Below are positions 16,841-56,531 of a DNA stretch of 64,000 nt, one piece after another; within the stretch, counting starts at the first letter, position 1; every line of letters starts with the position of its first letter. The notes beneath the pieces were generated by a model. The model saw only the letters and a list, made by a program, of their open reading frames with translations. It ran no database searches and was not told the DNA's origin. Source of the DNA: Isoetes taiwanensis (Eukaryota; Streptophyta; Lycopodiopsida; Isoetales; Isoetaceae); NCBI GenBank assembly GCA_021234155.1, contig JAJEKV010000023.1, positions 7,478,009 through 7,542,008 on the forward strand, written 5' to 3'. Both the position numbers and the translations under genes were made by a program.

Positions 16841-17202
16841 AATGGTATGCTCAAATGGCCGCAATCAGGGGGCTTTACTTGCAAGAGCGATAGATATGAT
16901 GGTGGAGCCAACATGGTGGACTATCTCCTTGCTCTAGCAATAGGACTTGATATGATTAGAGATTTCTTGATTGGCATACGAACAGGAGATGAAGAGACTT
17001 TGTCAGACCAATGTCCACGTCACTTTGGATTGGGAGCATTCAGTAGTGCAGCCACAAGATAGAAACCGTCAGGGGCTGAGAGACACCCCTGACTACCGAA
17101 AGCAAGCAGAATATGAGTCTGTGCTAGAACGTGAGCTGCAGGGGATGTCCTCTATCTGTTACACGATAAGTGGGAGTGGCTTGTAAATGCCTTATTCACA
17201 GC
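16841..17202 (+). mobile_element. LINE, 5' segment (end of endonuclease domain), split by the gypsy element
   Basis: The plus frame from 16847 contains MVDYLLALAIGLDMIRDF and GDEETLSDQCP. These align with the end of the endonuclease domain of the minus-strand LINE near 30700, which reads MVDYVLAPEQDMHVIKHF and DEEIDSDHLP. The SDxxP is the C-terminal SDHxP motif of apurinic-like endonucleases. A frameshift near 17020 moves the homology to the adjacent frame, which runs to the gypsy insertion at 17203. The reverse transcriptase of the same element resumes after the insertion at 25538. The 5' end of the LINE is not identified. Confidence 0.75.
17198..17202. repeat. Target-site duplication ACAGC (left)
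   Basis: The five bases just before the 5' LTR start (TGTGACATTCCCC) are ACAGC. The same five bases follow the 3' LTR at 25533-25537. This is the expected 5-bp duplication for Ty3/gypsy integration. Confidence 0.85.
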
Positions 17203-18826
17203 TGTGACATTCCCCTAAAATATACGCTATAAATACATATATTTCTGGACCACGTCACCATATAAGTCTACTTGAGCAGCCTTGTACACCATAGTGGGTG
17301 GAAAAGGGAGTACTGACTAAGTTATTCCAGTTATTCACATAACGACCTCACCCTATTGGGCACCTGCCACATGGAAGTACCCCATTGGAGCTACCTGACA
17401 GTGACATGGAACCCTAACCTATAAGTACCCTAACCCTAACCCTAACCCTAACCCTAACCCTAACCCTAACCCTAGGCCACTTTTTGGCTCCATCTGCCTT
17501 CAGACCTGTTCTTCACTCGGAACTTCGTTTTGAACATCATTCATTGCGGCGTAGCTCAGATCGACAGCCCCAAGGCAATGCGCTCATAAGGAGGAGGAGG
17601 AACCACCCGACTCGTCAGCAAGTCATGGAGACCCCAGGAGTTAGAGGAAGTTCGTCCTGAGTAGGTATTTAGAGTATCTTCATAGGTAGATCATCTGGAA
17701 TCTAGGATTCCTCTTATCTTGCTAGTAGAGCCTTCCTAAAACCCCCTGTCTAGATTTTGAACCCTAATCAAGAAACCCTAATAAGTAGGTGATTCATGTG
17801 TGCAGATTAGATGTTATCTTCATTATTTATCATGTTATGTTGATGTACGATGATGGTTGATCTTATGTTTGCACCTTTTGTATATTAGGAAGGGGGGTAG
17901 AGACCTAGTGGTCACTATCTAGATGATGCTCCTAGTTAGATCCCTTAGTTCATATGCGGCCTATGCATAGGAACCCACCTGGCTACGGGGTCCATGGAGT
18001 GATTTAGCACTATACAACGAGGCTAATGGCAAAGCGGAGGGAGGTCTCTGCAGAGCGCGGCTTCTAGGGACCCATAGTGGGCTAGGCTAGGCCTACAGTT
18101 GGTCACCTCGTGTGCTCCGGGTATGGATCCGATACTTCCTAGGTCAATGGTGTCGCCCTGACTCTCGAGAGTTGCAGGTGTCGGCTTGGCTCTTGTTTTG
18201 GGGGAGTTCAGTCGGGTACAATTATATGTCGCCACGATTCTCTAGCTGCTCATTGAGCCACTAGACCTCAGGAAGGGAAGTTGCAACCCTTTCTACCTCA
18301 TCGGACGGGGGAGATGCAACCCGGAGTAGTCTCGATGTGTGATATCATGAGATTATATTTCCTGCAGATTATAGTCACGCCAGAGTCCGATTTAGCCCAT
18401 CTGCAAAGTATGCACAGGAGGGGCAGATGGAGTGGTCAACCCTAGCCATTGTCTATAGCCATCCCTGCCATTGTTATAGCTCAGTCTGCTCTATCTTGAG
18501 GCCTAGCCATCATTCGACGTCCCTTATGAGTCTGAGCCTGGGTAGAAGCTCATATGTTTGATGGTATGTTATTATCTTTGATGTATCTATGGTTGTACGG
18601 ATGTGCTATCCTTCGTGGTAGTCAGATGTATTGTGATTACTAGTGCTAACGCTATGTTACTTCTGCTGTTATAAGAGCCATAAGGGAAGGGCGTGCAAGA
18701 CACCTTTGTGTCCCGCTCTCGCACCACGGTTACCTTAGGTGCGGGATAGATGGAGGGCCCATGCGGCTGGAGGGCTGGATGGGAGATGTACAACGGCGCA
18801 TCATATATTTGGTGGGGAGCATCACA
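17203..18826 (+). repeat. 5' LTR of the H3-carrying gypsy element
   Basis: The LTR is 1,624 bases long. It starts TGTGACATTCCCC and ends GGGGAGCATCACA, so the ends form a short TGTGAC/ATCACA inverted repeat. It is homologous end to end with 23897-25532, with many substitutions and some indels, so the insertion is not recent. It contains a run of about eight CCCTAA units at 17427-17473. The primer-binding site follows directly. Confidence 0.9.
17427..17473. repeat. Internal CCCTAA (TTAGGG-type) tract
   Basis: About eight perfect CCCTAA units lie inside the 5' LTR. The matching part of the 3' LTR (24147-24167) has only about two units plus a variant. The usual plant telomere unit is CCCTAAA, so this is not ordinary plant telomeric sequence. 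Confidence 0.85.
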
Positions 18827-18827
18827 A

Positions 18828-18839
18828 TGGTATCAGAGC
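18828..18839 (+). promoter_or_regulatory. Primer-binding site of the gypsy element
   Basis: TGGTATCAGAGC lies one base after the 5' LTR. It is complementary to the 3' end of plant initiator methionine tRNA, the usual primer for plant copia and gypsy elements. Confidence 0.9.
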
Positions 18840-19431
18840 AATGTTCTTTGTTGACCAAGAGCTAGCACTGAACATATCCCTGACTAAGTAGATTAACAGG
18901 CCTAGTAGAGTATGAAATGGAAAATTCCAGCACTGAATCTCGGGGAAATTGTTTTTCGCCCAAGTAGTAGGGTCATAGAGTTAAGCTAAATTATAGATTC
19001 AGAGAAAAGGAACAAGTCAAATGAATAATTTACTAAAATTGGAGTGGAAATTATGCGTGGGCATCAAATTTCACTCAAAACGGGTCAAAGAATCATCCCA
19101 GTTCGAGACCCGGGTGAAAAATGGTGCGGATTCATAATTAACACACCAACCCATTAGAAATTCGAAATTCAAAAATTATATAGTAATAAAAATGACTAAC
19201 CATTAATAAGGGTGGCTAATTAATAGATGTATTAATAGTAAAGGAATATTCCCTAGCCTAGAGAGTATCTTTCCCTTTCAAATACCATTTTGCGTCCCCC
19301 TCTCCCTAATTTCGCCCTAAACCTCTCTCTCTTGATCTCCAGTTTAAATTAATCTGTTTCTTTGACAGTAAGACACGACTCACACCAAATGCACTGCTCG
19401 GGAGGTTAGAAGCCCCAGGTAGAGATCCAGC

Positions 19432-20160
19432 ATGGCGGAACTGGCGGCGGGCAGTGTTAAGAAAATCCCCGAGCATCTGAGGCCTAGGCGGGAGGAGGAG
19501 CCCAACACATCGAGCTCCACCAATGAGACCTACCACACCAGCGATGAGCGGGCCCCGAGCAGTTCGACTGAGAGCACCCAACACACCGATGAGACGGTCG
19601 CCCACGACACGCTTTTGAGGAGCCGATGGGGATCCCAGCAGCAAGAGGAGCAGGAAGAGCAGGTGGGCTCCAGTAAAAGGAAGGGGAAGGAGAAGGTGAC
19701 GGAGTGGGCAGGGGAGAGAGCGGCCAGGAAGAGGAAGAAGAGAGAGCATGAGGCAAGGCGGTGGGAGAAAAGATCCAAGAAGGATTAGGACAAGCCAAGG
19801 GGCACAGTTAGGATCGAAGAACCTCATCAAGAAGCAACTGACGAGGAGCAAGAAGATGAAAAGGAGATCGAAGAAGAAGTGGAGGGAGGAGAGGAAGAAA
19901 AGGGGTTCGAAGGGGCAGTTGGGGAGACCTCAAACTCCGACGCCAGACTGCCTTAACCGAATTGGCCCAAGTCACTGAAGGTGAGTAAGAAGCAGAAGGT
20001 GGGAGAGCGAGAATTCGAACTCAAGCAGGACCGTGAATTTGAGAGGAAGAAGAAGGCATACGAGGAGTACTTCCAAAGGGTGGACGCGTTACAATGACTT
20101 TTACTGTAAGCAGAACTTCCAAAAGTACGTGAAGGGTGGCAGACCTAAGAACCAGCCCAA
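19432..20160 (+). pseudogene. N-terminal part of the element's extra ORF: charged, NLS-like
   Basis: The frame opens MAELAAGSVKKIPEHLRPRR and continues with a Ser/Thr/Glu-rich stretch. A strongly basic block follows (KRKGKEKV then RKRKKREHEARRWEKRSKK), which looks like a nuclear localisation signal. Next come an acidic Glu-rich stretch and a charged, probably helical segment (EFERKKKAYEEYFQRVDA). It is interrupted by TAG at about 19786, TAA at about 19953 and a frameshift near 20090. In the shifted frame the sense continues NDFYCKQNFQKYVKGG, a proline-rich linker (KPPPPQPEAPK) and then the histone fold. The composition suggests a nuclear protein. I do not recognise a family for this part. Whether it was fused to the H3 domain in one protein is an inference from the continuous frame once the breaks are allowed for. 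Confidence 0.6.
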
Positions 20161-20494
20161 GCCCCCTCCACCACAGCCAGAAGCTCCCAAGAGGGTCCAT
20201 CATGGACCCAACTCCAGGCACGCAGGGGTGTTTCAAGAGATTAGGCACTTTCAGTAGTGCACTAATCTCCTGATCTGGAAGGCGCTGTTCGAACGGCTCC
20301 AGGAGATCATGCAGGACTTCAGGACGGATTATCGGGTTACTCCCCTGACAGTCCGATCACTACAAGAAGCAACTGAAACCGAGCTCGTTCAATTGTTCGA
20401 GGAAGGCAACTTATGCGCCATACATGCCAAAAGAGTCACAGTGATGCCCAAGGACCTCCACCTGGCTCAAAGAATCAGAAAAGACAAGCTTTAG
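20160..20494 (+). pseudogene. Histone H3-like fold encoded inside the gypsy element
   Basis: After a Pro-rich linker the frame reads through all H3 secondary-structure elements: alphaN (EIRHFQ), alpha1 ([11 protein letters not shown]), loop 1 (RTDYRVT), alpha2 ([18 protein letters not shown]), [15 protein letters not shown] (end of alpha2 and loop 2) and alpha3 ([11 protein letters not shown]), then TAG at the normal H3 length. Residues equivalent to C110, H113, K115, R116, D123 and L126, the H3-H3' four-helix-bundle set, are kept, as are R69, R83, T118 and K122. R63 is Trp and one residue is missing near 71-72. Loop 1 has the canonical length, unlike plant CenH3. The ARTKQTARKS-type tail is absent. 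One in-frame TAG (20255-20257) sits at the K56 position, one base from AAG. It lies well inside the LTRs and ahead of gag, so it travelled with the element. Confidence 0.9.
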
Positions 20495-20570
20495 AAGCTT
20501 GGTTTTTGTGTAAAATTTTTGATGACATGTGTAATTAAACTTTATTATTAACATAGAAAGTTAAATTTTT

Positions 20571-21065
20571 TTTCAAAAAGAAGTCTTTTAGGTCAAGATT
20601 GACCCACTCGAGGCCCACACACCCCCAAAACCGGCATCGAGAATGCAGAGCCCTTCTTTGTGGAGTGACCCGAGTCGGCTTGTTGATAAATTGCCATGAG
20701 AAAAGTTGCTAGATTATTTAGCATTGTCCAATCTTGCATGTTAAGACTTTAATTTTTCCAAAAATGTTGTCAAATAGTCAAGATCGACCCACTCGGGTCA
20801 CTCCGCGCCAAAACCCCCTGCGTCGAGAACGCAGAGCCCTTCCACGCGGAGTAACCCGGGTCGCCCATGTTTGCACTTGTACTTGCCAGTGACATAAGAT
20901 AAGTTAGTACTTAGCCTAGAATAGAATAAACCTTGCATTCTAGTATTTTACATTTCTCAAAAATGTTTTTGATTTGTCAAAATTGACCCACGGGTCACTC
21001 CGCGACAAACCTCGCTGCGTCGAGAACACAGACCCCTTCCGCGCAGAGTAACCCGAGTTGCCTTT
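20571..21065 (+). repeat. Three tandem hairpin modules downstream of the H3-like ORF
   Basis: Three copies (about 20590-20680, 20771-20864, 20967-21063) with a period of about 185-200 bases. Each has an outer arm GACCCACTCGGGTCACTCCG, an inner hairpin CTGCGTCGAGAACGCAG and a closing arm CGCGGAGTAACCCGGGTCG that pairs with the outer arm. Copy 1 is the most diverged. AT-rich spacers separate them, each with a TTTTCCAAAAATG-like lead-in. There is no coding sequence. An RNA structure (packaging, export or dimer signal) is possible but inferred. Confidence 0.75.
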
Positions 21066-21289
21066 GTTCGACTCAAGATTGTCCAAAACTTGCCCAACAA
21101 ACTACTCTAATGTGTTTCTTGGCTTGTTTTATCTAAATAGCCAAACGGATAGTACTAAGTGATTCACGCAACAGTTTGAAAAGTGAGTGAGACACCTCAC
21201 AGGGCAAGTACAGGAACCGTAGGACAGGGGACTACCAGAAAAAGGTGGATAGTGCCATGAATAACATATGGAAAACCCAGAAATTGGAG

Positions 21290-21920
21290 CAGTTTTTCTG
21301 GAAAGGACAGGTCATAAATGGAAGCTAAAGCTTGGCTGGATGAAATGGAAGAACTTGAAAACTCATATGGGATGAAAGATAAAGGCATAGGAAAAGTGGC
21401 AATAACAAATCTAATTGGTCCAGGGTGTATTTGGTGGAATGGGTATGCTAACTCAAACAACTAAAAAGAAACAGTTGCAGATTCAAAACCTTCAGTTTTT
21501 TGCAAGCATTATGTCCCAAGGTCGCACACAAGCAGGCAGATTCAGCAGTTCTACAGGCTAGACCAAGGGAACCTATCAATGGCCAAATATACATAATAAT
21601 TTATGAGGCTAAGGCTAAATGTTTCAAGAATCACAGAGAGGCAGGTTGCAGATGGTTATATTGAGGGGTTGAACAGCCACACTATGGGATTTATCCCGGC
21701 CATCAACCTGAAAATAGTTGGGGAGGCCGAAGACAAAGCACTAAGCCAGGAGGAAGCACTGCCGACCCCAGGGCAGAAACAATCATTCTACAAGGAGAAA
21801 GCAGCATGCTCTTATCCATCCAAGCGGGCATTGACACACCAACAGGGCAGCAACCTCAGGGAAAGATGGATAGGAAAGGCTCCTATGGAAATAATAAGAA
21901 GCATCAGGGAGGCCTAGCGG
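21290..21920 (+). pseudogene. Gag-like region of the gypsy element
   Basis: Retrotransposon gag forms the particle that packages element RNA. In broken frames I read KAWLDEMEELENSYGMKDK, then GPGCIWWNGYA, then QFFASIMSQGRTQAGRF, with the spacing of the retro-gag domain (the conserved WLxxMExxF and WW motifs). The plus frame 21603-21917 continues with RLRLNVSRITERQVADGYIE, typical of the C-terminal part of that domain. No CCHC zinc knuckle is recognisable downstream. Stops and shifts occur throughout, so no intact Gag is made. Confidence 0.65.
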
Positions 21921-22138
21921 GGAAGTCAGTGAAATATTTTCTGGATAGCGTTCCCAAGGAAAAGAGGGAGGAATGCATAAAGAAGAAGTTAAGTACAGAT
22001 GCTTCTAGCCGGGACACTCACACACGATTGCCCTTTTATGATGCAAGCAGCACTGGCAGAGCTCATAGATTGGGAGTCGCCAACAGAACTAGAAGACAAC
22101 GACGATGACCAGCAAGAACCACATGACTATATAGAAGG

Positions 22139-22555
22139 TGAGTGTAGAATCTGTGCAGCCAATGAGTCAAGTGACTTCAACGGCTATTTCAGCAGAGGGC
22201 ATCATTGATGATAAGCCCTATATAGTTCTTATAGACACAGGTAGCTCCCACAACTTTGCTTAGCCCAAGTTAGCTGCGTCATTGAAATCCAAAACCCTTA
22301 AATCGAAGCCCAAACCAATCAGTATCTCAAGAGGGGCAATTCGCCACACCAAAGGAAGAAGAGTCAATTTTGACATAGATCTAAGCAGGACCAAGTTGAC
22401 TATCGGGGCAGAAGTCATGGACATTGGTAAGTATGACCTTATAGTCGGCATGGAGTTCTTCAAGCCAGCTAAGGCAATAATCGACTGTGACAGACATGAG
22501 ATCTTGATCACGGCAACCATTTTGTGGACAAAGGTAAGGAAGTCCTTTCCGTAAT
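22139..22555 (+). pseudogene. Retropepsin-like aspartic protease of the gypsy element
   Basis: The frame contains YIVLIDTGSSHNFA with the catalytic DTGS at 22234-22245. A TAG follows six codons later (22261-22263). Then come KLTIGAEVMDIGKYDLIVGM and FFKPAKAIIDC, the second conserved block (DxIxGMxxL/F) of plant gypsy proteases. It cleaves the polyprotein in intact elements. Here the single stop prevents a complete domain. Confidence 0.8.
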
Positions 22556-22559
22556 GCAG

Positions 22560-23013
22560 TGTATGTCCTTGAAGCAGTTGCACAAATCCATAATGAAGGA
22601 TAAAGTTGAATACATCCTTAGGCTAGAGACCATTGAGCCTGATCAAAAGCAGCAAGATGAGTCAAGCTTGAAAGAGTTGCTCGGGCTAGTTGGGAGGCTA
22701 ATCAAGGAGTTCCATGATGTTTTTCCGGATGAAATCCGTGAGTTGCCGCCCTATAGAGGTGTGGAATGTGAGATCACACTAGCACCAGGTGCTAAGCCTA
22801 TCAGTAAGGCTCCTTATAGGATAAGCACCCCAGAGATAGCAGAGCTCAAGAAGTAATTGCAAGAGTTGCTAGAGCTCGGATTCATCAAGGCAAGCGTATC
22901 ACTCTTCAGGGTGCCCATTCTCTTCGTAAAGAAGAAGGACGAAAGTTTAAGGATGTGTATTGACTACCATCAGTTGAACAAGCAGACGGTAAAGAACAAA
23001 TATGCTTTGCTAT
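22560..23013 (+). pseudogene. Truncated reverse transcriptase (fingers only)
   Basis: The frame reads FHDVFPDEIRELPPYRGVEC and APYRISTPEIAELKK, then a TAA, then [32 protein letters not shown] and [14 protein letters not shown]. These are the standard blocks that precede the palm of gypsy reverse transcriptase. Homology stops here and a minisatellite begins, so the YxDD catalytic motif, RNase H and integrase are absent. Confidence 0.85.
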
Positions 23014-23480
23014 AGGCGATGATGAGATCCAACAGGGGCGTTCTCTAGACCAGTATGGGTGAAGAGTGCGCATGACCGGGAGGGTCATGTGAGAGGAACG
23101 CAGCATCGTGGGCAATTACGGGATCAGTAGAGGATTCCCTAACTTAAAACCCTTGGGGCCATAATGCACTGTGGGTGTGCATGAATGTAGAGGTCATGCA
23201 CGAGTAGGCACGGGATCGTGGGCGATGATGGGATCATCGTTAGGATGTTCTCTATGCTACGATGCACGTCACATAAACATGACCATGGGGGGAAGGGGTC
23301 AGGATGAGGTAAGCGTGATCATGCGCGATGATGGGATCGTCTGGAATATTCTGTAGCTTAAACCCCCAGGGGCATGAGGCACTGCAGGTATACACGATCA
23401 CAGGGATCTTGTACAAGATAGCACCGATCATGGGCGATGATAGGATCATCTTAAATGGTCCTTAAGCTCAAACCTATAGG
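23010..23480. repeat. Minisatellite replacing the rest of pol
   Basis: About five imperfect units of roughly 105-110 bases, marked by GGCGATGATGGGATCATC at about 23015, 23110, 23221, 23325 and 23433, with TTAAACCC, GGGGC and CACTGCAG blocks between them. It joins the truncated reverse transcriptase to the 3' untranslated region. The frames across it are products of the repeat. Confidence 0.7.
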
Positions 23481-23896
23481 CCATGATCGAGTGCAGTAGT
23501 AGGGGTAACCTTGAGCTAGTAGTTCGGCTCAAGGAGGTAACTAGGGGGGTGGTCCCCTAAAACCACAAACTTATTAACTAAACTAACGTAACGTGCTACT
23601 TGTGCAGGCCAATGAAGGGGAGCATGAAGGAGAGAGCATGTTACAAGAAGAAAGGTGTCATAGATTTTAGACTTAATTATGAACTCCTAAAAGTTGTTGT
23701 GATAATGTTATGTGTACAATTTTAATAATACTACTTGTTACGGCTATATAATTTTGTATAACTTATAAATATAGCCTTATGATTAAGTAATAAGTAGTTA
23801 ATGGGAAGTTGATTGTTTAGATAAAGTTGTCTTTATATTCATGTGAGTTTTGCAGGGTACCTTAGCGTAATACTGAGGACAACAATATCCTGGGGG
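23480..23896 (+). other. 3' untranslated part of the gypsy element
   Basis: AT-rich, no coding signal. It ends CCTGGGGG immediately before the 3' LTR, a short purine tract that probably acted as the plus-strand primer. Confidence 0.5.
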
Positions 23897-25532
23897 TGTG
23901 ACGTTCCCCCAAAAATATACGCTATAAATACATATAGTTCTTGGCCACGTCATCGTACAAGTCTACTTGAGTAGCCTTGTGCGCCATGGTAGGTGGAAAA
24001 AGGAGCATGGCTAAATTATTCACATAGATTAGCCAACCTTATGCTAAGGGCCATTTCCACATGGCCTCACCCTATTGGGCACTCGCCACATGGAAGTACC
24101 CCATTGGAGCCACGTGGCAGTGACATGGAACCCTAACCTATAAGTACCCTAACCCTAACTCTAGGCCACTTTTTGGCTCCATCTACCTTGAGACCTGTTC
24201 TTCGCTCAGAACTCCGTTCCGAACACCGTTCATTGCGGTGTAGCTCAGATCGACAGCCCCAAGGCAGTGTGCTCATCAGAAGGAGGAGGAACACCCGACT
24301 CGTCAGCAAGTCATGGAGACCCCAGGAGTTGGAGGAAGTTTGTCTGGAGCAGGTATTCAGAGTAGCTTCATAGGTAGATCATCTGAAACCTAGGATTCCA
24401 GATGAGCTAGTATCTTATCTTGCTAGTCGAGCCTTCCTAAAACCCCCCAGTCTAGGTTTTGAACTCTAATCAAGGAACCCTAACAAGTGGGTAGATTCAT
24501 GTGTGTAGATTAGATGTTATCTTCATTATTTATCATGTTATGTTGATGTACGATGATGGTTGATCTTATGTTTGCACCTCTTGTGTATTGGGAAGGGGGG
24601 TAGAGACCTACTGACCACTATCTAGATGATGCTCCTACCCCTTAGTTTCTATTAGATGTGGCCTGTGCATAGGAACCCACCCGGCTACGGGGGCTATGGA
24701 GTGACCTAGCACCATACAACAAGGCTAGTGGCAAAGCTGAGGGAGGTCCCTGCTGAGCGCGGCTACTGGGGACCCATAGCATGCTAGGCCTATAGACGGT
24801 CACCTCGTGTGGGCCGGGTATGGGCCCGACACTTCCTGGGTCAATGGTGTCGCCCTGACTCTCAAGAGTTGTAGGTGTCGGCCTGGCTCTTGTTTTGGGG
24901 GAGTTCAGTCGAGTATGAATCGTGTGTCGCTACGATTCTCTAGCTGCCCATGGAGCCACTAGACCTTAGGAAGGGGAGATGCAACCCTTCCTACCTCACC
25001 GGACTGGGGAGATGCAACCTAGAGTAGTCTCGATAGGTGATACTATGAGATTACGTATCCGACAGGTTATAGTCACGCCAGAGCCCAATTTAGCCCATCT
25101 ACAAAGTATACACAGGAGGGGAGGATGGAGTGGTCAACCCTAGTCATTATCTCTAGCCAGCCCACTGTTGTTATATCTCGGTCTGCTCTATCTTGAGGTC
25201 CAGCTGTCAGTCGACTTCCCTTACAAGTATGAGCCTGGGTAGGAGCTCATATGTTTGATGGTATGTTATTATCTTTGATGTATCTATGGTTGTACGGATG
25301 TGCAACCCTTCGTGGTAGTTGGATGTATTGTGATTGTTAGTGCTGATATTATGTTATGCTTCCGCTATTATAGGAGCTCATGGGGGAAGGGCGCGCAAGA
25401 TATCTTCGTGTCCCCTTCCTGCACCATGATTACCTTAGATGCGAGATAGACGGAGGGCCCATGCGGCCGGATGGCTGGATGGGGGATTTAGATGTACGAC
25501 ACGGTGTCGTATATTTGGTGGGGAGCGTCACA
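23897..25532 (+). repeat. 3' LTR of the H3-carrying gypsy element
   Basis: 1,636 bases, starting TGTGACGTTCCCCC and ending GGGGAGCGTCACA. It aligns with 17203-18826 from end to end but differs by scattered substitutions. It has about 35 extra bases before CCTCACCCTATTGGGCAC and lacks most of the CCCTAA run. ACAGC follows at 25533-25537. Confidence 0.9.
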
Positions 25533-25537
25533 ACAGC
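25533..25537. repeat. Target-site duplication ACAGC (right)
   Basis: Identical to 17198-17202, so the gypsy element inserted here in one event. Confidence 0.85.
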
Positions 25538-27791
25538 AGCCAATGCATATTTTACAGTGAGAGATCTTTCGCGAAGGGACACTATGCAAATCCTTAGAAT
25601 CCCCGGTTTGACGCTGATTGCAAGGCTCTAAAAACCCAGTTGCACCTCATCTCAGACCCATAGTTGCAGCAACAAGCTATTCAAGACTATAGAGCATTCT
25701 TCAAATCCAAAAAGCATAGGTGTATCGCAGAACATCAGCTGCGCATGCTTGACTTGCTGATGACAGAGTTGAAAGCCTTCTGGCATAGGGTGTTGTATAA
25801 GAGGCATAAATCACCCAGCAATATTATCATAGACCAGTAGATGCATTGCCTGGAGGAGCTGTACAAACCCCCAGGAATGATTGCTAGAGTACCGGATCAG
25901 ATAGTAGAAATGCTACAGCTCACTGAGGAGGACATCCAACAGGACCTTAGATACCTGGCTAATGGCAAAGCGAAGGACTTGCAGGGACTTCAAGCCGAGT
26001 TATTGAAATGGGGTGGGCCAACTTTGCTATGGCCTCTGACAGTGATAATTAACCAGGCCATAAGGAAGGGCCTCCGAAGGAGTGAATGGTTAGCAAGGTC
26101 ACCCCCATTCATAAGGCAAGTAATAGGGATGATTTGGCGAACTATCGCATGATCATGGTAGGCATGGTGGAGAAGAGGCTAACTCAGTGGGCTGAGGAAG
26201 CGTGCAGTTGGTCAGGTGGGGTTTTGCCCTGCGCACTTCTATCCACTCTCAGAATCCTTATGGAAGCTGACCGCAATGCGCGACGTAACCTGTATTGTTG
26301 TTTTGTAGATTTGAAGACTGCATATAATACGATCCCATGAGACCTGCTGTGGGAGCATTTGCAGGAGCTGCATGTCCTACAGAACTTACAAAATGTCATC
26401 TACAGCCTCTATGATGGGATATATATTGCATTGCCTACCTTAGATCAACGAGTTGCTAGCACCATAGGGGTTAAACAGGAATGTCCATTATCCTCAATGC
26501 TCTTTGGTCTCTATATTGACAAATTGAAGACCCGGATGCAAGAACATGGAGGCGGTGGCCCCCAGCTACTAGAGGCATACAGTATAAGGCAATTGCTCTA
26601 TGCAGACAATGTGGACTTGTTGTCCTATACAACCAGGAGTGTGCAGTAGCATTTGGATGCTCTTAGTGGGTTCTATGACACAGTAGGAATGACGATGAAC
26701 CTGCAGAAAACTAAGCTGTTGGCAATCCTCTCCTCGCAGCATGATATCCCAGGTCTCGATTATAGAGAACAGAGGGTAGATATTGTAGGGACCTTCAAGT
26801 ATCTGGGAGTCGACTTTTCCGCTAGCATGCTATGGGATGACTGTGTGGAAAGAAGGGTCGGCGCGAGATGGAAAGCCATGTATGATATGCAAAATAGCTG
26901 CTACATAGAGAGGGTGCAAAAGGCATTTTTGACATACAGTCTAGGTGTCAAGGATACGGTGCCTTATCCAATTTTGCTATATGAAACTAGTTTCTGGCCC
27001 TTGCAATATTCCGCTATGAGCAGACATCTTGCCATAAGGTCAATGGCATGGATGCATAGCATCTTCCCTCTAGGGCTTTGTTATTTGCACAAGGGCCAAC
27101 AGCTGAATAAGAGAGTATGGCAGGAACACTGTAAGGAATGGTTTGCAACATGATCTATAGACTACTAGCAGATTCTGGCTATGCCTAATGCTAAGGGACA
27201 AGATGCACACCTGAATGAGCACTTTGCTACCGCTCTGTGGAATGCAGCCACTCTTGCAAAGCCTAAAACAGAGTACTATCTCACGCAGGTTAATCCAGCG
27301 CTGGAACATGGCCCACACCAGTACTTGAAAGCACATATATCTATGAAGAAACAGAGAGCTATTGCCTTCGTGAGTACGGGGTCCCATCATCTCAGAATCG
27401 AAACAGGTCGCTGAAGTACGGATGGAGGGCAGGGAATCGCCCGGTATGAGAGAATATGCCAGTGTTGCCGCATGCAAATAGTAGAGGATGAGCGCCATGC
27501 TCTACAGGAGTGTCCGGCATATACGCATATCCGAGCAGCACATGCTGATCTTAGATGCTCGGAGACACTGCTGCATCACTTGCTGGCATCGCCAATGGTT
27601 GCACATCTCTTGTCCTACATTTTGAAGGTCTGAGATCTGAGAGGATCTGTGTTGTATTTTCGGTGTGGTTTTTATCTGCTTTGTGTAGTGCATGGCCTAT
27701 CTCATAGGCTGGTTTGGCCTTCGTAGACGTTAAAATATACTTCCTTCCTTCCTTCCTTCCTTCCTTCCTTCCTTCCTTCCTTCCTTCCTTC
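25538..27791 (+). mobile_element. LINE, 3' segment: reverse transcriptase to tail
   Basis: This is the continuation of the LINE interrupted at 17202. Across broken frames I read FFKSKKHRCIAEHQ, ANGKAKDLQGLQAELLKWGG, TPIHKASNRDDLANYRMI, CCFVDLKTAYNTIP, GVKQECPLSSMLFGLYID and the catalytic LLYADNVDLLS (consensus YADD, here YADN), then GMTMNLQKTKLL. Near 27370-27530 is STGSHHLRIETGR followed by CQCC...ECPAY, the zinc-finger-like C-terminus of this LINE type. It ends GTAGACGTTAAAATATAC followed by a (TTCC)n tail at 27741-27791. Internal stops show it is dead. The longest open piece is 26653-27153. Confidence 0.9.
27741..27791 (+). repeat. (TTCC)n microsatellite, tail of the LINE
   Basis: About twelve perfect TTCC units directly after the LINE 3' end. 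The other LINE ends in the window carry different short tandem tails. Confidence 0.9.
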
Positions 27792-36939: not shown

Positions 36940-37124
36940 TGTTCGAGGCATTCTAGACCTCACATTAATTATCTAGATATTATTTATTATTAGCATCTTT
37001 ATCTTCTTATTATTAGATACTTTGCCTTTTAGGCATGATATATGTATTACATGAAAAGTATTAATGTTATCACTTTGTGTATGCAACGACTCTTGTTATC
37101 TACTTGTTATTCATTTGTTTAATA
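36940..37124 (+). repeat. Copia 5' LTR (A), plus orientation
   Basis: 185 bases, TGTTCGAGGC ... TTTGTTTAATA, immediately followed by the primer-binding site TGGTATCAGAGC (37125-37136). The same LTR occurs at 38665-38845, 38846-39030 and 56347-56531. Confidence 0.88.
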
Positions 37125-37850
37125 TGGTATCAGAGCAGGCAACGATAGCAGGCAACGATGTCCATATGTGGAGCGACTGGAACAAGGACGCTCAGGCAAC
37201 GATGTCCATACGTGGAGCGACTGGAACAAGGACGCTCTATGTGTTTGATGGGACAGGTTATCTTGGGTGGAAAACAAAGATGAAAATTGTACTTCGAAAC
37301 GACAAAGTTATTGATGTTGTGTTAGGAGTGGTGGTCGTCCTCTGCAACCTGAAAGTACGTCTGGGGTTCTTTGACACAAAGGCCTCAATATGATGCATGG
37401 CGTAAAGAAATAGAAGATTGAGATGATAAAGATTAGATTGCTCGATGCATGATACTTTACGTCCTTAAAGATTCCATTCTCATTGATGCTGAAGTATATG
37501 AGCATGCTAATGAAGCATGGGAGTATTTGGACAAAAATTATTTGAAGCGGACAAAGCAAGAAGTGTTACATTTACGTAATAATTTGAACAGTTTAAAGTA
37601 AATGCTTACAGATTCTATTGATGATCATATCAATAAATTCAAAGAGTTGGTAGAACAACTGTCAGCAGCAGGGGCACCGGTGGAGGAAGAGCAATTACCT
37701 GTTATATTGTTAGGCATGCCTCATGATTTTGACACTATAGTCACCGTTTTTCTCAATAAAGAAGATTTGGCTTTTGAAAGTGCACGTTTGTCATTGAAAG
37801 ATCATTTTCGAAAAGTGGAGCATGAGGTTGTTCCCCTAAAGGAAAAAGCA
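37125..37850 (+). pseudogene. Copia element A: primer site and gag (plus strand)
   Basis: After the primer site comes a 42-base tandem duplication (37157-37240, reading RGATGTRT twice in different states). The gag_2/UBN2-type copia gag follows: TLYVFDGTGYLGWKTKMKIV, VYEHANEAWEYLDKNYLK, DSIDDHINKFKELVEQLSA and ILLGMPHDFDTIVTVFLNKE. Several stops interrupt it. Homology in this orientation ends at about 37850, where the strand of the coding sequence flips. Confidence 0.85.
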
Positions 37851-38722
37851 GAAAAATCCCGTCTAGAGATGTATGCTTCTTTTTTAAACTTCTTATATGC
37901 AATATAAAAAGCCTTTTCGCCATCACTAGGCTCTCTAGCACGACGAGAACCTGTAAGAATTTGCTCATCAGGAGTGGTATGAACAACTAAAGCTTCTTCC
38001 TCTAGGGGAACAACCTCATACTTCGCTTTTCGAACATGATCTTTCAATGACAAACATGCACTTTCAAAAGCCAAATCTTCTTTATTGAGAAGAACGGTGA
38101 CTATAGTGTCAAAATCATGAGGCATCGTGCCTAACAACATAATAGGTAATTGCTCTTTCTCCACTGGTGCCCTAGCTGCTGACAGTTGTTCTACCAACAC
38201 TTTGAATTTATCGATATGATCATCAATGGAATCTGTAACCATGTACTTTAAACTGCTCAATTTATTACGTAAATGTAACGCTTCTTGTTTTGTTCGTTTC
38301 AAATAAATTTTGTCCAAATACTCCCATACTTCATTAGCATGCTCATATATTTCGGCATCAACAAGAATGGAATCTTTAAGGGCATAAAGTATCATGCCTC
38401 GAGCAATTTGATCTTTATCATCCCAATCTTTTACTTCTTTATGCCATGCATCATACTGAGGCCCTTGTGTCAAAAGAACCCAGGGCGTACTTTTAGGTTG
38501 AAGAGAACGCACCACCGCTCCTAACACAACATCAATAACTTTGTCGTTTCGAAGTACCATTTTTATCTTTATTTTCCACGCAGGATAACCTGTCCCATCA
38601 AACACATAGAGTGTCCTTGTCCCAGTCGCTCCACGTGTGAAAACTGTTGCCTGCTCTGATACCATATTAAACAAATGAATAACAAGTAAATAACAAGAGT
38701 TGCATATACAAGGTGATAACAT
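37851..38722 (-). CDS. Copia element B: gag (minus strand), long open frame
   Basis: A minus frame of 306 codons, of which about 290 are gag: MVSEQATVFTRGATGTRTLY, WKIKIKMVLRNDKVIDVVLG, EHANEVWEYLDKIYLKRTKQ, DSIDDHIDKFKVLVEQLSAA and FDTIVTVLLNKEDLAFESAC. This is the copia gag, a relative but not a recent duplicate of the plus copy (many residue differences). Its last ~15 codons are antisense of element A, so the frame crosses an inversion breakpoint. It lacks a zinc knuckle, protease and integrase. It is the best-preserved copia frame here, but it cannot support transposition. Confidence 0.85.
38653..38664 (-). promoter_or_regulatory. Primer-binding site of copia element B
   Basis: Reverse complement TGGTATCAGAGC, directly adjoining the LTR at 38665. 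It fixes that LTR as the 5' LTR of the minus-strand gag. Confidence 0.85.
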
Positions 38723-38845
38723 TAATGCTTTTCATGTAATGCATATATCATGCTTAAAAGGCAAAGTATCTATAGTAAAAAGATAAAGATACTAATAATA
38801 AATAATATCTGGATAATTGATGTGAGGCCTAGAATGCCTCAAACA
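38665..38845 (-). repeat. Copia 5' LTR (B1), minus orientation
   Basis: 181 bases, on the minus strand TGTTTGAGGC ... TTTAATA, next to the primer site at 38653. Its outer end (38845) touches the next LTR with no base between. Confidence 0.88.
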
Positions 38846-39030
38846 TATTAAACAAATGAATAACAAGTAAATAACAAGAGGAGTTGCATGCACAAGGTGA
38901 TAACATTAATGCTTTTCATGTAATGTATATATCATGCCTAAAGGGCAAAGTATCTAGTAATAAGAAGATAAAGATACTAATAATAAATAATATCTAGATA
39001 ATTGATGTGAGGCCTAGAATGCCTCGAACA
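38846..39030 (-). repeat. Copia 3' LTR (B2), minus orientation
   Basis: 185 bases, on the minus strand TGTTCGAGGC ... TTTAATA. The polypurine tract GCAGGGGGGG (minus strand, 39031-39040) precedes it, so this is the 3' LTR of the pol sequence to the right. It is joined end to end with B1. Confidence 0.88.
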
Positions 39031-39040
39031 CCCCCCCTGC

Positions 39041-40790
39041 AATCTTGGTCTCACATCTAAAACAAAATAGACCAAGGGTGCAAACTCCAACACGCAAACT
39101 CCAACACACCTACCCCTCCCCCCTCGGTTACCTTGGTCTAGTAAAAGTATTATTACCAGGATGAAAAACCCCCACGCTTTCGGGTTTTCGAGGGAAAACC
39201 TTAGTAGTAATAAATTAACTAGCCAAGCAGAATGTTCACTCTCCAATAATTCCAAAAGGGATAGAAAATTGAAGATGTTTCTTCGACCCTAATGATTTCA
39301 TAAAGATATCCGCAACCATAAAGTCAGTCGGGCAATACTCCAAGGCATTCGTCCTTTTCTTTACCTCCAGCTTCATATAATGATAATGAACTTCAATGTG
39401 CTTAGATTTAGAGTGTAAGACTTCATCGTGAGACAAATTGATAGTACCCTGGTTATCACATAATAGCCGTGTCGACTCCAATTGCACTTGCTAAAAACAT
39501 TCCAACATTCTTCGCAATCAAACAAGTTCTCGACTCGCTAAAGAGGCAGCAATATACGCAGCTTCATTTGAAGATACAGCAACACAATGCTGCTTCTTAC
39601 TAAACCAGGAAATAAGAGACTTATCAAAGAAAAAACAAGCCCCGCTAGTGGATCTCAAAGTGTCATTATCTCCAGCCCAATCAACATCAGTATAACCATA
39701 GAGAGTAAGAGAGGTATAGTGATCTTGCTTTTTGTAGAAAAGTCCATAAGTGTTAGTGCCTTTCAAACAACGAAGAACTCACTTTGCAGCTTGCCAATGT
39801 TTGATGCCTGGATCCTGCATAAATTGACCCAATGTATTAGCTGCAAAACTTATGTCAGAGCGAGTAGCATGAGCCAAATACAACAAGGCTCCAACAAGAC
39901 TAGCGTATGGAACTGATTACATCTGAATTCTCTCGGTATCTGAAAGAGGAGAATCTAAAGCAGACAAAGAACACTTATGAGAGCTTATAGGCAAAGGTGT
40001 AATTTGACTCTTGGCATATTCCAAACCAAACTTTTTAACCATATCATCAATATACTTGGTTTGACGTAACTGCAACCATTCTTTGCTTCTATCTCTAGTC
40101 ACTTCAATTCCCAAGCATGAATGGATCGCCCTAAGATCAACCATCTCAAAGGCCATTGAAAGATCTCGCTTAACTTGATCGAAAAAATTGATATCATTAG
40201 CAGCTAAGATCGTATCATCAACATATAGAGCTATAATAACAAATCATCCACTGCATCACTTGACATAAAGATTCGAATCTGCTGCACTAGGGAGATATCT
40301 TGCTGATAATAGAAAATTGTTCATCTTCAAGTACCATGCTCGTGAAGCCTGCTTAAGCCCATATAGTGATTTTTGCAACCGACATACCATAGTCTCCTTC
40401 CCTTGAACAACATATCCAACTGATTGCTTCATATAAATTTCTTCTTGAAGATCACCATTAAGAAAAGCCGTCTTGGCATCCATCTGCTGTACTTCCAAGT
40501 CATGGGCAGCTGCAAATGCTAAAAGAGTCCTTGCAGTAGTTAACCAAACTACAGTTGAGAAAGTTTCAGTATAATTAACTCCTGCAACTTGAGAATAACC
40601 CTTAGTAACCAAGTGAGCTTTAAATTTATCAAAAGTACCATCAGCTCGATATTTAGTCTTAAACATCCACTTGCATTTAACCGTCTTCCTTCCAGTGGGC
40701 ATCAGCTCCCAAGTTCCTTTATTGATTAAGGAATCATATTCGGCATCCATAGCAATTTTCCATGCGCTAATCTTGTTGGAGCCTTGATGT
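39041..40790 (-). pseudogene. Copia element B: reverse transcriptase and RNase H (minus strand)
   Basis: On the minus strand, 40879-40256 reads AEYDSLINKGTWELMPTGRK, KGYSQVAGVNYTETFSTVV, AKTAFLNGDLQEEIYMKQ and SLYGLKQASRAWY. It then continues ALYVDDTILAAND (the catalytic YVDD, about 40215), VDLRAIHSCLGIEVTRD, AHATRSDISFAANTLGQF and the RNase H blocks DVDWAGDNDTLRSTSGACFF, LLCDNQGTINLSHDEVLHSK and CPTDFMVADIF. Stops break it into pieces (40879-40256, 40156-39917, 39766-39518, 39487-39236). Integrase is missing, and homology starts just upstream of reverse transcriptase at the inversion breakpoint. Confidence 0.9.
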
Positions 40791-41590
40791 ATTTGGCTCA
40801 TGCTACTCGCCCTGACATAAGTTTTGTAGCTAATATATTGGGTCAATTCATGCAGGATCCAGGTATCAAACATTGGCAAGCTGCGAAGCGAGTACTTCCT
40901 TATTTAAAAGGCACTAACACTTATGGACTTTTCTACAGAAAGCAAGATCACCATACCTCTCGTACTCTCTATGGTTATACTGATGCTAATTGGGCTGGAG
41001 ATAATGACACTTTGAGATCTACTAGCGGGGCTTGTTTTTTCTCTGATAAGTCTCTTGTTTCCTGGTTTAGTAAGAAGCAGCATTGTGCTGCTGTGTCTTC
41101 AACTGAAGCTGAGTATGTTGCTGCCTCTTTGGCGAGTCGAGAACTTGTTTGGTTGCGAAGAATGTTGGAATGTTTTCAGCAAGTGCAATTAGAGCCAACA
41201 CGGTTATTATGTGATAACCAGGGTACTATCAATTTGTCTCACGATGAAGTCTTACACTCTAAATCTAAGCACATTGAAAAGGATGACTGCCTTGGAGTAT
41301 TGCCCCACTGACTCTATGGTTGCGGATATCTTTAGCGAATTCATTAGGGTCGAAGAAACATCTTCAATTTTCTATCTCTCTTGGAATTGTTGAAGAGTGA
41401 ACATTGTGTTTGCCTAGTCGATTTATTACTACTAAGGTTTTCCCTTGAAAACCCAAAAAGGAGGGGTTTTTTCATCCTGGTAGTAATACTTCTACTAGAC
41501 CAAGGTCTCCAGGGCGGGGTGGGGAGTTTGCACCCTTGGTCTATTTTGTTTTAGATGTGAGACTAAGATTTGGGGAGGGGAGGGAGGAAG
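40770..41590 (+). pseudogene. Copia element A: RNase H end and 3' untranslated part (plus strand)
   Basis: The plus frame 40784-41311 reads MYLAHATRPDISFVANILGQ, HWQAAKRVLPYLKGTNTYGL, DANWAGDNDTLRSTSGACFF and LLCDNQGTINLSHDEVLHSK, the same region as the minus-strand copy. It has a small internal loss after SKHIE; the original continues in the next frame (MTALEYCPTDSMVADIF). After the stop, the sequence parallels the minus copy down to TGGGGAGGGG (about 41570), where the LTR should begin. Instead a LINE end follows, so the 3' LTR is lost. Confidence 0.88.
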
Positions 41591-56346: not shown

Positions 56347-56531
56347 GGTTCAAGGCATTCTAGGCCTCACATCATTTATCTAGATATTATTTATTATTAG
56401 TATCTTTATCTTCTTATTATTAGATACTTTGCCTTTTTGGCATGATATATGTATTACATGAAAAATATTAATGTTATCACCTTGTGTATGTAACTCCTCT
56501 TGTTATCTATTTGTTATTCATTTGTTTAATA
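56347..56531 (+). repeat. Solo copia LTR
   Basis: 185 bases, aligned over its full length with 36940-37124. The first two bases are GG instead of TG. No primer site, polypurine tract or 5-bp duplication was found next to it. Confidence 0.8.

Follow-up and report, generated by a model that had tools for sequence, protein, structure and literature searches.

Does a retrotransposon of Isoetes taiwanensis make its own histone H3? The question arises from a 64,000-nucleotide stretch of the genome (the window), where, according to the original prediction, the gag of a Ty3/gypsy-like element is preceded by an H3 domain. We confirmed that window positions 17203–25532 hold a decayed Ty3/gypsy element with an H3-like ORF upstream of gag; all of its parts lie on the plus strand. 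The 5′ LTR (17203–18826), with ends of the TGTGAC...GTCACA type, and the 3′ LTR (23897–25532) have TG..CA ends, are separated by a K2P distance of 0.136, and are flanked by the target-site duplication ACAGC, read from the sequence at 17198–17202 on the 5′ side and present at 25533–25537 on the 3′ side. A primer binding site of the tRNA-iMet type (TGGTATCAGAGC) lies at 18828–18839. Downstream of the H3 fold (20222–20494, alphaN to the C terminus), we found remnants of gag (21540–22175; 30% amino acid identity to the gag of a clade I element, described below) and of the aspartic protease (22186–22515; 53% to a clade I element), followed by the start of the reverse transcriptase (22791–23009; 74% to clade I RT). 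The remainder of pol is missing, and no integrase is left.

Three repeats of ~190 bp that hold hairpins (20568–21068) separate this ORF, ORF1, from gag; as RNA, the middle one (20785–20880) forms a strong double hairpin (z −4.3), and the repeats had no Rfam match. Similar repeats also lie 3′ of ORF1 at other clade II loci (L052, L061, L037 and L063). Both window LTRs contain CCCTAA runs (17400–17470 and about 24125–24165) that resemble the TTAGGG-type telomere repeat. Just past the 3′ LTR (25841–26152), a frame without a Pfam match resembles by eye a fragment of a non-LTR (LINE) reverse transcriptase, and farther along (36940–41506) are nested inverted repeats with 90–93% identity, of which one more copy lies near 56348.

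The window fold matched the Pfam Histone profile (E 1.2e-21 at 20258–20491), and its best PDB relatives were H3 (H3.2/H3.3; 5e-23). As predicted, it carries the H3–H3′ residues C110, H113, R116, D123 and L126 along with R69, R83 and K122, and its loop 1 has the canonical length. The H3 fold that had been described as complete from alphaN to alpha3 is thus recognized by Pfam and PDB, but it is not quite full because one alpha-1 residue is missing (FERL-QEIMQ rather than FERLLREIMQ).

ORF1 begins upstream of position 19432, at which the region had been thought to start; its start codon has decayed to ACG (19375) and is followed by THTKCTARE.. The stretch at 19375–19431 (TTHTKCTAREVRSPR, a stop, then RSS) is homologous to the MARTKCTARK.. 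of relatives. Hence, the H3 tail of the window copy is displaced and degraded, not absent, and the claim that the element lacks an ARTKQTARKS tail had to be given up, as the N terminus of its lineage (clade II) is ARTK(Q/C)TxRK. Between tail and fold lies a damaged spacer (19432–20221) with basic and acidic stretches, a PYPKWPK-like motif and a proline-rich linker. Stops at 19420, 19786 and 20255–20257 and a frameshift between 19786 and 19985 interrupt the frame. Hence, the window ORF1 is dead, and we took its lesions as decay only. The predicted stop does stand at the K56 position, but rather than the lysine codon AAG, 19 of 21 intact clade II copies have glutamine there (18 CAG, 1 CAA). Likewise, the tryptophan reported at R63 is present in the window copy, but it is a minority state, with arginine in 16 of the 21 intact relatives. 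Both changes are mostly decay of this copy.

We searched the I. taiwanensis assembly (1,658,258,908 bp in 1110 contigs) for further copies; all candidate numbers are lower bounds or rough counts. The Histone profile gave 8705 first-look candidates, and among the best 150 of these, those from rank 16 onward were without the usual N terminus and had open frames of up to 494 aa. The window fold as query gave 7520, some of them in intact frames as long as 434 aa. A 51-aa tail query yielded 1227, over 20 of those scored lying in single open frames of 340–436 aa, and the N-terminal domain of clade I yielded 3201 at first look. Intact ORF1 frames of 370–490 aa occur across both lineages, and the H3 part was present in 20 of 20 ORF1 copies fetched, 18 of which had been chosen by the N-terminal domain (two were frameshifted inside the H3 part). 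The proposed check for other LTR-associated copies with intact ORFs, combined with dN/dS, thus returned many copies, and these are under purifying selection.

A control search for H4 gave 69 candidates, including 16 complete ordinary genes in short frames. Since nothing but ordinary H4 genes turned up, the excess of H3 is not general histone-pseudogene noise, and we excluded general pseudogene abundance as an explanation. The original prediction had named a chance insertion of an H3 pseudogene at this one position as the outcome that would speak against it; candidate copies lie at thousands of places, and copy number, selection and LTR context exclude both chance and a single pseudogene. No relatives of the H3-carrying elements were found in viral contigs. 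The host H3 genes themselves (L005, L006 and others) mix features of plant H3.1 and H3.3 (Y41, S87 and L90).

The retro-H3 ORFs fall into two lineages, clade I and clade II, the latter including the window copy; two clade I elements, one clade II element and the window element were read at length. The ORF1 of clade I (450–490 aa) consists of an N-terminal domain, a Q-rich linker, a basic 'STGGK' stretch adjoining the fold, and the H3 fold, which shares ~83–88% of the 91 core residues with host H3; its N terminus is not ARTKQT. The Pfam matches of the element-encoded H3 folds ranged from 1e-21 to 1e-43. Where read, ORF1 of clade I is followed by ORF2 (463 aa), which was found only around this clade, and the elements then have gag/CCHC, RVP_2, RVT_1, RNaseH and Integrase_H2C2 in that order. 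Element B (clade I-B, C1034:15218170-15231303) has LTRs that are 94.4% identical, the target-site duplication AAAGT and a primer binding site; hence, two TG..CA LTRs, a short target-site duplication and a tRNA primer binding site, the marks of Ty3/gypsy elements, occur in both element B and the window element. Its order is ORF1, ORF2, gag, protease, RT, RNase H, integrase and chromodomain, with damage in ORF2 and gag-pol. The chromodomain (PF00385, E 5.3e-9) lies at the integrase C terminus and was seen in this one clade I-B copy only. A further reading frame lies between ORF2 and gag of element B (L033:9666-10046).

In clade II, ORF1 is about 370–430 aa and its fold is ~60–67% identical to host H3. 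In the clade II element at C907:37673001, the LTR is related to that of the window element and the frame is intact across the fold; downstream of the fold we found no gag-pol, and that region looks like other insertions. The N-terminal domain of clade I ORF1 had no Pfam or PADLOC match, ORF2 had no Pfam, PDB or PADLOC match, and the two ORFs have no detectable relationship to each other. AlphaFold models of ORF1 and ORF2 were unusable (pLDDT 46 and 38), and because these are low-confidence predictions we left them out of fold searches. ORF2 is itself conserved, with dN/dS of 0.05–0.14 (L031:7986-8861; L085-L096).

Judged by its sequence, the element-encoded domain is H3 and not CenH3: the canonical loop-1 length and the nearest PDB chains, which are H3, rule out capture of a CenH3. 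Arabidopsis CENH3 stands apart in our tree, on a long branch whose position is uncertain. As to origin rather than function, the H3 parts of clades I and II may go back to two separate captures and not to a single one, as suggested by the long branch of clade II, by the differing N-terminal parts of ORF1 and by the restriction of ORF2 to clade I. We consider this possible but doubtful, because both clades use the same slot before related gag-pol, share the change of I124 to L and changes at sites 86, 87, 102 and 107, and can be joined in a tree with all retro-H3 together that is not worse (p-AU 0.50).

To determine how the H3 core has evolved, we calculated pairwise NG86 dN/dS; dS between the clades is saturated. 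Values for the core were 0.043 in clade I-A (153 pairs, dS about 0.75), 0.015 in clade I-B (3 pairs) and 0.046–0.05 in clade II (dS about 1.1), the last perhaps biased low because these copies were chosen by their fold. The low clade I values are not made by choosing H3-like copies, because most were chosen by the N-terminal domain. The remaining ORF1 outside the core had dN/dS of 0.09–0.23. Hence, purifying selection acts strongly on the H3 core in both lineages despite wide synonymous divergence.

Relative to host H3, the consensus differs at 31 of the 91 core sites in clade II, at 15 in clade I-A and at 11 in clade I-B. Among 19 core sites that we take, from general knowledge, to be DNA contacts or part of the H3–H3′ interface, clade II changed none (P 1e-4, hypergeometric), clade I-A changed one (K64R) and clade I-B none. 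In sequence, the consensus of all three groups keeps 9 of 9 interface sites and 10–11 of 11 DNA sites. Because the kept sites are the most conserved in H3 generally, this pattern is evidence of H3-like constraint rather than of incorporation into nucleosomes itself. The changes of clade II are enriched at 79–90 (8 of 12 sites, P 0.015) and cluster around loop 1/alpha-2, the region that separates H3.1, H3.3 and CenH3 in chaperone use; sites 86 and 87 are changed in all groups. Glutamine is often used as an acetyl-lysine mimic, and the Q56 of clade II may be read in this way.

The N terminus of clade II is also constrained. Its ORF1 begins MARTKQTYRK or MARTKCTARK, about 300 aa ahead of the fold, with starts of the form MARTKQTYRKTSP, MARTKQTMRKVGP or MARTKCTARKYSP. 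The start is firm because an in-frame TAA nearly always lies a few bases upstream (consensus CCGTAAGAYATGGC). Residues 1–9 are ARTK[QC]T[AMY]RK; compared with ARTKQTARKS, residue 10 is changed and ~300 aa are inserted. For tail residues 1–9, the synonymous proportion was 0.74, the non-synonymous proportion 0.17 and dN/dS 0.06, and for the next nine codons dN/dS was 0.39. The initiator methionine is expected to be removed before alanine, after which the clade II protein would show the first residues of H3. The tail up to K9 is where known H3K4/K9 readers and writers contact H3.

What does the captured histone do? Our best explanation, for which we see about an even chance, is that the element encodes an H3 variant whose partner is host H4 and whose site of action is chromatin. 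A host H3 gene would have been captured by a chromodomain-bearing Ty3/gypsy lineage in Isoetes and retained before gag in an additional ORF, whose C-terminal part it would form. The clade II protein would then be an H3 with a ~300-aa tail insertion, as its sequence reads: a free ART-K-(Q/C)-T-x-R-K N terminus, a charged, proline-rich spacer and the fold. This protein may pair with host H4, be handled by histone chaperones, and enter nucleosomes or bind H3-type partners. Its N-terminal peptide may be read by H3K4/K9 readers or writers while the element-specific part of ORF1 recruits or protects the element. The likeliest use on chromatin would be as a tether for the integration machinery or in packaging new cDNA to escape silencing; the kind of chromodomain found in clade I pol can bind H3K9me. 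Incorporation, targeting and anti-silencing by the ORF1 protein are what we infer, and the roles first proposed (placing cDNA, marking nucleosomes and diluting host H3 marks) have the same standing. Somewhat more tentatively, the protein may be a functional H3 variant with an element-specific tail region; incorporated into nucleosomes of the host or of the element, it would steer integration or evade silencing, and would be the first core histone encoded by a retroelement.

The ORF1 protein could instead act outside nucleosomes as a soluble mimic whose ARTK..RK peptide and fold titrate or recruit H3 chaperones, modifiers and readers, weakening silencing or riding into the nucleus. The end of tail constraint at K9, the stretch contacted by H3K4/K9 readers and writers, fits such a role, as do the large N-terminal part and the loop 1/alpha-2 divergence, which would suit altered partners. 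We regard it as unlikely, if the most serious competitor, since a decoy needs no full set of DNA-contact arginines, yet nearly all are kept. Less probable still is a structural role in which the H3 fold, alone or together with host H4, compacts the RNA or cDNA of the element in virus-like particles, much as the histones of some giant viruses condense their genomes. The basic stretches and the place of ORF1 directly before gag in a gag-pol element would agree with packaging; against it, the strict constraint on the H3 tail has no obvious use inside a particle, and the element already has an ordinary gag with its CCHC knuckle. Finally, a functionless H3 pseudogene hitch-hiking and amplified with the element would suit the dead window copy and the frequency of gene fragments in plant LTR elements (PMC13317346), but the low dN/dS strongly disfavours it. 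Fold and tail are both under purifying selection, in two lineages whose synonymous distances are near 1; in addition, ORFs stay intact in diverged copies and the start context is conserved, so that we give neutral capture hardly any weight.

If the captured protein works as an H3 on chromatin, the element can act there by supplying the nucleosome, beyond reading its marks through a chromodomain; the host winds its DNA on a spool of proteins, one part of which a genomic parasite appears to produce. The family also offers natural, replicated evolutionary data on the parts of H3 that a parasite must keep, namely tail residues 1–9 and the tetramer and DNA contacts.

Core histones are, to our knowledge, not known as retrotransposon cargo. 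In agreement with the original prediction that no plant LTR element of this kind had been described, we found no retroelement with a core histone in the open-access full-text literature, a scope outside which most subscription journals and preprints fall, so that absence is not proof. The word histone is absent from the main text of a 2026 review on how transposons capture plant genes (PMC13317346) and from the Isoetes sinensis genome paper (PMC10541799).

The closest relatives in architecture are chromoviruses (the Tcn1, Galadriel, Tekay, Reina and CRM clades), which share with element B the LTRs, primer binding site, gag, protease, RT, RNase H, integrase and C-terminal chromodomain. Chromoviruses have been described from lycophytes (PMC2864245, PMC3350952), and the parts of these reports available to us make no mention of a histone ORF. 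In contrast, the Isoetes elements add ORFs before gag, one of which ends in histone H3. Orchid Ty3/gypsy elements carry an ORF for an m6A demethylase (2-ODD) and likewise have a host-type domain fixed in an additional Gypsy ORF, but that domain is an enzyme rather than a histone; the same work also looked for extra domains in LTR elements of angiosperms, and no histone is reported in its accessible portion (PMC9289625). Like the Isoetes elements, the viruses that encode histones (the Melbournevirus/marseillevirus doublets and the core histones of Medusavirus; PMC11500106, PMC12297534) are mobile or viral genomes that encode core histone folds. However, these are dsDNA viruses with several core partners, whereas the Isoetes elements have H3 only and are retroelements that replicate through RNA. 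CenH3 and other H3 variants share with retro-H3 a divergent tail and changes in loop 1/alpha-2, but retro-H3 is encoded by a mobile element, has the canonical loop-1 length and, in clade II, keeps the ARTK..RK N terminus.
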